Source: Bacteroidota bacterium
GTDB lineage: Bacteria > Bacteroidota > Bacteroidia > Chitinophagales > Chitinophagaceae
Length of the DNA stretch: 64,000 nucleotides
NCBI GenBank assembly: GCA_029555415.1
Contig: JAKPSI010000037.1
Span: 62,001-126,000 of the forward strand
Direction: 5' to 3'
Shown here: in pieces, positions 43,026 to 45,278 of the stretch
Layout: every line of letters begins with the position of its first letter
How positions within the stretch are numbered: position 1 is the first letter of the stretch
Position numbers and translations under genes: made by a program
The notes under the pieces: generated by a model
What the model saw: only the letters and a program-made list of their open reading frames with translations
Databases searched by the model: none
What the model was told of the DNA's origin: nothing

Positions 43026-43195
43026 CAAGAGGCCCCTTTCGGAAGCCCCCTGTAGTACACAAAACACCACGCTTTTGAATGACAGGTCAACTGCGAAGTC
43101 CCTGTCAGTGTGGAAAGTTATTTTGCCATACCTGGAAAGGGGTGGCGTACTGTCCTCAATCGGAAGACAGGCCGCACAGGTTGCTTCCCGTACTT

Positions 43196-44629
43196 TTAAT
43201 GTGATTTAGCTGTCGCTTTTTTCGCATGGAACGGAACCCAGCCGGCATGCAGCATCAGGCCCGCACTGTTCAGATTGATCTTTCCGTAACCGATACCACT
43301 GAGCGGAACCTTGAAATAAGGTTCAGCGGCCACGAACAGACTCTTGCTGAGACTGCGCTGATAGCCGGCCGACAATGTCAGTACGGAGAAATAATGATGG
43401 TTCTTGTCGAACAGGGTATACTTGCGTGAAGTATTGACCCCTGCCGTATTCTTGTAGAAATAGTTATAGGTCTCACGTTTCATGAGGTAGGAAGAGATAC
43501 CGGTCCCTGCGAACCAGTTGCCATTCCCCTTCTTCGCGAAATTATATGTGAACAGCAGCGGGATCTCATACACTTTGCAATCCGCTTCCACTTTCTGCAG
43601 ATTGGGATAATAGTTCCAGAAGCTGGATGGCGGATGATACTGATCCGGTGAGGCGGTATAAATCTTGCGTGCGGTATAAAACCCGGTACGCAGTGTGAAT
43701 TTTCCTTTATATGTATAGCCCAGTCCTGCTCCACCCACCAGTTTCACAGTACCCGTATTGCTCACACCCACCACACTCACATCCGGTCCACCGGAAGCAG
43801 CAATGAAGAAAGTGCTGCGGGCCTTTGCTGCAGGCTTTTTAGCTCCTGCCACAGAAGGTTGTGTGATATTCAGTTGCGGAACTTTCACTTGCTGACCGGG
43901 CTGGTTGTAGCTCTTCCTTATCACTTGCGCATCAGAAAGTCTCAGCGCTTCATCCAGACTGATCCGCTGAATGGACACAGCCGCAGTGCCGTTTTCATTC
44001 AATTGGGATGACACCCCGGCGATCAGCGGTGAACCGGAATTGTCCTGACCGGGTCGCGTTGCAGCAGAAAGATCTGACTGCAGCATAGCTACTCCTTTTT
44101 GAGTGTCTTGTTTGCGGACGATCGTATTCCTGCGTTGCTGCTTCAGATTTTCGTTGAAAGCATCCTGCAATGTGTTTGTGTAGGAATTCTTCAGCAGGGA
44201 AGAATTGACCTTACCCGTTACTGCAGGGTCTGCAGTAACAGGCCGGTCTGTTGTGTTTCTATCGTTGGTATTTGCATTTCCGGAAACAGCATTTCCGGAA
44301 GAGAGATGCTTGTTGTCGCTGGTAGTTTCTTGTTGCAGGTCAGGCGTTGCGGGTTGCTGCGAACTGCCGACTGCCGATTGCGTACTGTTCACTGCCTCCT
44401 GCCCTTTGTTCACTGATCTTCCATTCCCGGCAAAATAATAATAGGAAGCGCCGCCTGTTAAAAGTCCCAGGAACAACAGGAAGAATATAACTCCCCTGCG
44501 CCTGTCCTTTTTAACGGGCATATGCTTATTGAGTAACTTCTCCATCTTCGCCCAGGCCTGTTCGTCGTAAGCCGGGTGATGGTGGTCTGCTGCCTCTTTT
44601 ATTCTCTTATCGAAATCTTCAAACTGCAT
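43196..44629 (-). CDS. Envelope-spanning anti-sigma factor with outer-membrane barrel (Dma-like)
   Basis: A 477-residue protein in four parts. Residues 1-45 are a cytoplasmic, charged helical region (MQFEDFDKRIKEAADHHHPA, YDEQAWAKMEKLLN). Residues 46-67 form one membrane segment. Residues 70-270 are Ser/Asn/Gln/Thr-rich, without clear folding. From about 272 to the end there is an eight-strand-sized outer-membrane barrel (STFFIAASGGPDVSV to LMLHAGWVPFH). It overlaps the end of the ECF sigma gene by 11 bases, as expected for an anti-sigma partner. This architecture corresponds to the dual-membrane-spanning anti-sigma factors described in Bacteroides thetaiotaomicron. The ATG at 44629 is preferred to a TTG three codons earlier. 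Confidence 0.75.
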   Translation of the reverse strand: MQFEDFDKRIKEAADHHHPAYDEQAWAKMEKLLNKHMPVKKDRRRGVIFFLLFLGLLTGGASYYYFAGNGRSVNKGQEAVNSTQSAVGSSQQPATPDLQQETTSDNKHLSSGNAVSGNANTNDRNTTDRPVTADPAVTGKVNSSLLKNSYTNTLQDAFNENLKQQRRNTIVRKQDTQKGVAMLQSDLSAATRPGQDNSGSPLIAGVSSQLNENGTAAVSIQRISLDEALRLSDAQVIRKSYNQPGQQVKVPQLNITQPSVAGAKKPAAKARSTFFIAASGGPDVSVVGVSNTGTVKLVGGAGLGYTYKGKFTLRTGFYTARKIYTASPDQYHPPSSFWNYYPNLQKVEADCKVYEIPLLFTYNFAKKGNGNWFAGTGISSYLMKRETYNYFYKNTAGVNTSRKYTLFDKNHHYFSVLTLSAGYQRSLSKSLFVAAEPYFKVPLSGIGYGKINLNSAGLMLHAGWVPFHAKKATAKSH

Positions 44630-45278
44630 TTTTGGCAACGGTTATATCATTTTGTTTATACAATAACTTCTGTAACTGTCTCCTTGCCTTCGAAAGGTTC
44701 GATTTCGAAGTACCGGCCGAGATCCCAAGCTGCTGCGCGATCTCTTCGTGACTCAATCCCTCAATGACGAAAAGATTGAAAACCGTACGGTAACCAGGTG
44801 AAAGGTCCTGCACCGAACGGATGATCTCTTCATACGTCATTTTCTCCACCGCATCTTCGCCATGTGCTTCCACCTGGTAAACGACGGTATCCAGTTCCGA
44901 GAACATCCTGTGCTTATGATATTTGCGGAAATGGTCAATAGCCGTGTAGACCATGATCTTGCGGAGCCAGCCCTTGAAGGAACTGACCACATCGGCATAG
45001 GCAGGCGAGTAATGATGAATTTCCCGAAAAATCTTCAGAAAACCATCATTGAGGATCTCCACCGCGTCCTCCTGATTGTTCGTATACCTGTCACAGATGG
45101 CCATAGCATACCCGTAGAAAGAGCTGTATAAAACTTTCTGGCTCTCTCTGCTGTTCTGGGCACAGGCCCCGACATGATACGTCAGTTCGTCCGCGGATAA
45201 CAAGGTTTCAGTTGCGTTGTTGAAATAATCGGGAAAAGGTCGGAAAAGGTTGCCTTTTTCCCGTCCCTCCCATAACAA
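44619..45278 (-). CDS. ECF sigma factor
   Basis: A sigma-70 family protein of the extracytoplasmic-function type. Region 2 contains YGYAMAICDRYTNNQEDAVEILNDGFLKIFREI and the -10-binding FKGWLRKIMVYTAIDHFRK. Region 4 contains LSPGYRTVFNLFVIEGLSHEEIAQQLGIS with its helix-turn-helix (TSKSNLSKARRQLQKLL). It would direct RNA polymerase to envelope-response genes. The exact start is unclear: no ATG precedes region 2, and TTG at 45278 or a TTG about 23 codons later are the options. It is followed by the barrel-type anti-sigma gene with an 11-base overlap. Confidence 0.9.
   Translation of the reverse strand: MLWEGREKGNLFRPFPDYFNNATETLLSADELTYHVGACAQNSRESQKVLYSSFYGYAMAICDRYTNNQEDAVEILNDGFLKIFREIHHYSPAYADVVSSFKGWLRKIMVYTAIDHFRKYHKHRMFSELDTVVYQVEAHGEDAVEKMTYEEIIRSVQDLSPGYRTVFNLFVIEGLSHEEIAQQLGISAGTSKSNLSKARRQLQKLLYKQNDITVAKNAV

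Follow-up and report, generated by a model that had tools for sequence, protein, structure and literature searches.

A probable Reo/Dma-type signalling pair of Chitinophagaceae predicted to link an outer-membrane barrel to GGCAACC promoters

How might the state of the outer membrane be conveyed to transcription by a single protein chain? The question is raised by two genes on the minus strand of a 64,000-nucleotide stretch of contig JAKPSI010000037.1 from a member of the Chitinophagaceae (the whole stretch analysed, hereafter the window), in which an ECF sigma factor gene is followed by the gene of a putative anti-sigma factor. We consider it likely that the two constitute a signalling pair of the Reo/Dma type, that is, a self-amplifying envelope response with a sigma factor held at the inner membrane, a barrel in the outer membrane as the sensor and targets carrying GGCAACC promoters. 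The genes and the promoter of their operon are located as follows.

43196..44629, minus strand: anti-sigma gene, ATG start, 477 aa, of dual-membrane-spanning design; the inhibitory role is suggested by homologues
44619..45203, minus strand: ECF sigma factor gene from a probable TTG start, 194 aa; the frame is open to 45278
45228..45254, minus strand: sigma-operon promoter, GGCAACC-N16-CGAT, with its start 51 nt ahead of the TTG at 45203

The ATG of the anti-sigma gene overlaps the sigma stop by 11 nt, exactly as given in the preliminary description of this DNA, and the sigma product contains Sigma70_r2 and Sigma70_r4_2, both above the Pfam cut-offs. The same description began the sigma frame at 45278, a position lying above the promoter. 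Two observations point to TTG 45203 as the probable start instead: all 16 near loci (window included) keep a TTG at that codon, and the longer frame would enclose the conserved promoter at 45254-45228. Signalling through FecR and TonB-dependent transducers likewise connects a barrel in the outer membrane with an ECF sigma factor, but there the barrel, the anti-sigma factor and the sigma factor are encoded by separate genes, and none such was seen beside the window pair. The upstream neighbour is a multi-helix membrane protein with no Pfam match over the cut-off, which we take to be transporter-like; downstream lies a convergent gene assigned by the Pfam scan to the Flavoprotein family and presumably ubiX-like. 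No FecR-type or receptor-type gene adjoins the pair among the window ORFs listed, of which the two nearest neighbours were Pfam-scanned, in agreement with the initial proposal of a connection lacking a separate receptor. The sigma factor also misses the Sig70_bacteroi1 cut-off, with 74 against 126 bits.

The layout of the anti-sigma protein was modelled with AlphaFold2 from four sequences (window, L002, L003 and a partial L004; mean pLDDT 48, pTM 0.38), and its parts correspond to the following segments.

44504..44629, minus strand: cytoplasmic part, residues 1-42, the presumed sigma-binding region (AlphaFold2, alignment)
44426..44503, minus strand: inner-membrane helix, residues 43-68 (AlphaFold2 and hydropathy)
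43820..44425, minus strand: linker, residues 69-270, of low confidence, presumably disordered and periplasmic (AlphaFold2, alignment)
43238..43813, minus strand: eight-stranded outer-membrane-type barrel, residues 273-464 (AlphaFold2, Foldseek, VIA-align)
43577..43579, minus strand: codon of Cys351 in the barrel (alignment; placement relative to the membrane judged from strand order)

The model reproduces the one-chain layout read from the sequence beforehand, with short helices, one membrane helix, a linker of about 200 residues and eight C-terminal strands. The cytoplasmic part is predicted to form two short helices (3-16 and 23-36) at a low pLDDT of 36-50, and A13, A14, W26 and L33 are conserved in it; the single hydrophobic stretch of the protein covers residues 46-64. 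The expected Ser/Asn/Gln-rich disorder is mirrored in the linker by its composition (S 11%, Q 10%, A 10%, N 10%) and by a pLDDT of about 21-42 by blocks over 69-270, with one low-confidence helix at 150-190. A further proposal, that the His cluster DHHHPA may be a sensing or metal site, fared less well: the run exists, but its HH pair is kept in 9 of 30 aligned members, and we rejected it as a general metal site.

Do the C-terminal strands indeed belong in the outer membrane? They could instead form a periplasmic beta domain that never enters it, leaving the protein anchored in the inner membrane only, and the PF13568 match on the barrel does stay below its cut-off (22.4 bits against 27). We nevertheless regard this as unlikely. 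The eight strands predicted between 273 and 464 (block pLDDT 54-82) match OmpA, NspA and OprF with Z of 15.0-16.6 over 133-168 aligned residues at an rmsd of 2.3-3.3 (Foldseek, VIA-align), whereas soluble beta proteins in the same list, among them YceI-like ones and photosystem chain O entries, reach Z of 7.3-9.1 only; the predicted fold is of the OmpA type, as anticipated for an eight-strand outer-membrane barrel. Judged against the width of the periplasm, all 30 measured linkers (133-229 residues) are long enough to cross it. Related proteins are also described as spanning to the surface in the excerpted text of two reports (PMC9308784, PMC13114119). By prediction and homology, the anti-sigma factor looks like one chain that starts in the cytoplasm and ends in the outer membrane.

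Covariation between the N-terminus and the sigma factor was assessed as well. In a weighted run, 24 of the 50 top pairs involved columns 1-68, against 12.2 expected by column number. When compared with shuffled pairings, which also destroy relatedness, the count for columns 1-68 (22 of 50) was reached by 1 shuffle in 100, and that for the cytoplasmic columns 1-45 alone (13 of 50) by 19 in 100, which is not exceptional. The excess sits in the columns of the membrane helix, whose 9 of 50 pairs were equalled in a single shuffle of the 100; this is not the expected place of contact.

The association of the two genes is not a matter of chance, because 64 of 117 genomes from the family, the own genome among them, gave a match in a single-sequence search, and an ECF sigma gene stands directly upstream on the same strand in all 33 loci fetched (32 distinct, window included). 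All but one of the 16 nearest distinct loci (window included) show the 11-nt overlap; in the exception, L016 (G058:C44), the anti-sigma frame is split in two in the assembly, through either an assembly error or a real frameshift. A membrane helix exceeds the hydropathy threshold in 27 of the 33 loci, the others being L020, L021, L024, L026 and L030, which fall below it, and the L016 fragment. In an alignment of 30 sequences, which omits L006 (same contig as L002), L004 (contig end) and L016 (two frames), the mean frequency of the commonest residue is 0.48-0.52 over residues 1-66 and 0.40-0.57 over residues 263-463, but 0.19-0.21 in the linker, whose sequence is not conserved while its length, counted between positions 68 and 273, spans the 133-229 residues given above.

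Beyond the family, the profile of these 30 sequences finds matches in 112 of 395 genomes across the phylum, many of them covering the N-terminal part only, and no relatives were found in viral contigs; L101 was left out of the pair set, its overlap being above the limit. Proteins matching the N-terminal part are carried by 12 of the 16 control relatives used below, and in 10 of 10 loci fetched from these an ECF sigma gene lies directly upstream by eye (confirmed by Pfam in two). The own genome holds a second pair of the same build, L110 (C19), with a sigma gene at 937-1518 and a partner of 460 aa at 1551-2933; the C-terminal part of this partner is different, and its end matches PF13568 below the threshold, at 18.6 bits. 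A split version of the design is seen in the same genome at L111:1215-3752 (C59), where an ECF sigma gene is followed by a 394-aa protein with one hydrophobic stretch and a sub-threshold zf-HC2 match, and then by a separate PF13568 barrel protein. The design is present in many families of the phylum, and more than once in this genome.

How does the pair relate to systems already described? In EcfO-Reo of B. fragilis and P. vulgatus, an ECF sigma gene is likewise followed by an anti-sigma factor extending from the cytoplasm to an outer-membrane barrel, and, according to excerpts of the two reports, the sigma gene is induced together with a small regulon under envelope or oxidative stress (PMC9308784, PMC13114119). 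Dma1/Das1 and Dma2/Das2 of B. thetaiotaomicron share the architecture by their authors' description, again as excerpted. Proteins of this build are described as anti-sigma factors spanning to the surface whose loss turns the regulon on, and the loss of such partners raises the regulon in both B. thetaiotaomicron and P. vulgatus (excerpts of PMC13088901, PMC9308784, PMC13114119), which makes it very improbable that the partner in the window serves the sigma factor as an activator or chaperone and not as an inhibitor.

As stand-ins for the Dma proteins we used sequences from genomes (family f11) that hold NigD and were for that reason taken as Bacteroidaceae-like. Profile matches there are weak, and 13 of 30 fetched loci, picked by architecture, consist of an ECF sigma gene, located by tblastn, and then a protein of 354-450 aa of the same build, with a membrane helix over the threshold in 11 of the 13. 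In profile-profile comparison both ends match: the barrels with 98.0% probability, and the N-terminal part with 95.2% probability (E 2.6e-8, 13% identity), against at most 1.2% in 20 column-shuffled controls. The aligned profile columns agree in 12-13% of residues, a low identity. These matches bear out the likeness to the dual-membrane anti-sigma factors of Bacteroides that the preliminary description had put forward.

There are differences too. The EcfO-Reo regulon includes NigD proteins according to the excerpts, whereas the own genome has no match to PF12667 (NigD_N) at E 0.001, and NigD was rejected as a target. GGCAACC was not seen upstream of the 13 Bacteroidaceae-like sigma genes, some of whose upstream stretches are short, and Cys351 has no counterpart in the Bacteroidaceae-like profile. 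The predicted targets of the window pair also differ from those of Dma1/Das1 and Dma2/Das2. In Dma3 the sigma domain is fused to the anti-sigma factor (excerpt of PMC13088901), and likewise L136 (G561:C226) is a natural single chain of 576 aa that joins sigma domains to an OMP barrel domain, all over the Pfam cut-offs, and has a hydrophobic stretch as well. It speaks for the Reo/Dma reading of the window pair, although the window has two separate genes. Among open-licence papers we recognised no Chitinophagaceae case of the design, and found none on an ECF21 promoter motif, on DUF5777, on GGCAAC in connection with a sigma factor of Bacteroidetes, on a barrel anti-sigma factor of Chitinophaga or on YceI together with an ECF sigma factor. 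What is known is the build (Reo/Dma); what is new here is the clade, the promoter, the predicted targets and the single cysteine, and the idea of a Chitinophagaceae-type version of the design holds as a new variant of the Reo/Dma build.

The promoter was recognised by its recurrence upstream of the sigma gene. The strict form GGCAAC[CT]-N16-CG[AT] occurs within 150 nt in 23 of 31 sigma loci (window included) and a looser form in 28 of 31, against 0 (strict) and 0.0018 (loose) per region in first-order resampled sequence; L032, with 23 nt upstream, was left out of this count. The three misses are near forms: L014 has an inserted C, while in L024 and L030 the spacer measures 15 nt. Position 7 is a C in 30 of 32 cases and is followed by a T-rich stretch, neither being part of the search pattern, and the spacers are not the same from genome to genome. 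Among further profile-search loci, [AG]GCAACC is present in 22 of 25 (5 of 6 from the same family and 17 of 19 others), L094 with its 26 nt being left out. Genome-wide, the enrichment of the plain pattern is slight: it occurs 57 times in the own genome and 110 times in 12 relatives, where the reversed pattern occurs 42 and 83 times, respectively, so that single sites prove little; because plain counting is this weak, targets were sought through conservation across genomes.

Which genes would the sigma factor transcribe? Sites were scored with a position weight matrix (PWM) built from 31 sites, the window's own excluded, and therefore trained on sigma promoters, not target promoters. Its threshold of 10 was picked once the scores were known (lowest of the 12 DUF5777 sites 10.5, highest of 18 comparison loci 5.2). 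As background, 15 of 1654 windows score over 10; the loci with known sites (L046, L053, L055, L248, L249, L250 and L263) were kept out of these background windows, which take in the control DUF5777 and peroxidase loci. Good sites in the own genome and in 12 relatives stood before recurring genes, of which two were tested in 30 genomes, 14 with the pair and 16 controls without a match in the single-sequence search. The first encodes a DUF5777 barrel protein (PF19089, E 1e-63), of which every one of the 14 clade genomes except G012 (72% complete) and G044 has a close orthologue. A promoter-type site precedes all 12 orthologues; the sites begin 25-87 nt ahead of the aligned start and score 10.5, 11.2, 11.4, 13.8, 14.2, 15.9, 18.4, 19.1, 19.5, 20.7, 22.2 and 23.0; the own genome's site, before the gene on contig C88, is with 11.2 among the three weakest (10.5-11.4). 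None of the 18 other DUF5777 loci, 17 of them more distant homologues, has a site, the score being at most 5.2. The highest belongs to G039, where DUF5777 is 63% identical with similar neighbours on both sides and the pair's barrel has no match. In G044 a site stands before a row of tRNA_anti-like, YceI and DUF5777 genes, not directly before DUF5777, and in four clade genomes (G047, G048, G050, G083) no more than 2 kb separates DUF5777 from the anti-sigma gene. The second gene encodes a glutathione peroxidase (PF00255); four of the 14 clade genomes (G000, G073, G085, G090; scores 15.6-19.1) have a site before it, and none of the 16 controls does (at most 4.1). We consider both the sigma factor's own operon and the DUF5777 barrel gene to be well supported as its targets by this comparison of sequences. 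NigD, the known target of Dma1 and EcfO, was not found in the own genome with the NigD_N model. The earlier statement that the targets are unknown can now give way to specific predicted targets, named from their promoter sites.

The region behind the anti-sigma gene appears to be a further place of target genes, and the window retains a site there.

43155..43185, minus strand: a further promoter-like site (PWM score 16.0), which follows the anti-sigma stop by 10 nt; in relatives a lipoprotein gene lies behind it

Of 56 loci (window included), 9 have a same-strand site scoring over 15 within 300 nt after the anti-sigma stop, and 1 has such a site on the opposite strand. Behind them lie lipoproteins with a haem-domain-like end (PF13442 at 18.3-26.5 bits, cut-off 27, in the five that were scanned, L005, L011, L017, L026 and L029), a CHRD protein (L031), tRNA_anti-like genes (L026, L029) and YceI (L029, and sub-threshold in L031). 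The near relative L005 has both the site and the gene, and no gene of the lipoprotein kind was seen behind the window site, which looks like a remnant of a lost target gene. A small RNA starting from this site is conceivable, but folding lends it no support (z -1.55) and the one Rfam match is far below the gathering score, so that we do not claim it. Elsewhere, the best-scoring other site of the own genome (L178), before what we take to be a cytochrome b gene, coincides in part with a terminator-like stem and was left out of the count. Good sites also precede Radical-SAM genes (L179 in the own genome, L209 in G073 and, of another type, L201 in G058), a metallo-hydrolase gene (own L177) and an adhesin-like gene (L200 in G058, L212 in G050).

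How could these parts work together? The pairing, the promoter and the target promoters are read from sequence, and the architecture from prediction. The anti-sigma factor would hold the ECF sigma factor at the inner membrane by its two N-terminal helices, cross that membrane once, span the periplasm with its disordered tether and end in the predicted outer-membrane barrel. By analogy with other anti-sigma factors, trouble sensed by the barrel, be it damage, failed assembly or oxidation, may free the sigma factor, most likely through proteolysis that cuts the tether first and the membrane helix next. The freed sigma factor would transcribe from GGCAACC-N16-CG[AT] its own operon, the DUF5777 barrel gene and, in some genera, glutathione peroxidase, with haem-lipoprotein, tRNA_anti-like and YceI genes behind the anti-sigma gene as further targets in several relatives. 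The outcome would be a small self-amplifying envelope response, with an outer-membrane-type barrel as its sensor and another as one main predicted product. The predicted set, together with the oxidative and toxin responses of EcfO-Reo published in the excerpted reports, fits an outer-membrane damage response.

As the trigger, the reports on Reo and Dma put forward stress at the outer membrane, oxygen or an unknown glycan, without settling the matter in the text excerpted (PMC9308784, PMC13114119, PMC13088901). One reading, to which we give somewhat less than even weight, is that the barrel is a test client of the BAM machinery, so that stalled assembly leaves an unfolded C-terminus or an exposed tether to be cut and the sigma factor is released without any ligand. 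It concerns the trigger alone and is compatible with the dual-membrane architecture. Excerpts of two reports place ecfO-reo of P. vulgatus among the genes most induced after BcpT or Bd-A and name BamA as the protein inhibited by bacteroidetocin A (PMC9308784, PMC13114119); the linker, unconserved in sequence but kept in length, behaves as a protease-accessible tether might, and the predicted DUF5777 product is itself a barrel. Against it, the barrel residues C351, Y324 and Y388 are invariant beyond the apparent need of folding, which suggests a more specific input.

The invariant cysteine offers such an input. A Cys occupies the place of C351 in 55 of 55 clade members (30 from the family alignment and 25 from the profile search, window included), and it is the sole Cys in 49 of them, namely in 30 of 30 of the former and 19 of 25 of the latter. 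With strand 1 starting on the periplasmic side, it would lie near the outer end of predicted strand 4. A rather speculative reading is that the lone C351 acts as a redox or electrophile switch, the oxidation of its thiol being passed through the tether to the sigma factor and turning on an outer-envelope redox set; if so, this set would comprise glutathione peroxidase, the haem-domain-like lipoproteins, YceI and the DUF5777 barrel.

For the Reo/Dma-type pair as we interpret it, the Chitinophagaceae clade offers handles on the sensing of outer-membrane damage: a promoter sequence, a predicted direct target in 12 genera and one invariant residue. G039 may serve as a natural control genome, in which the target gene is kept while the barrel-type pair and the promoter are both missing.
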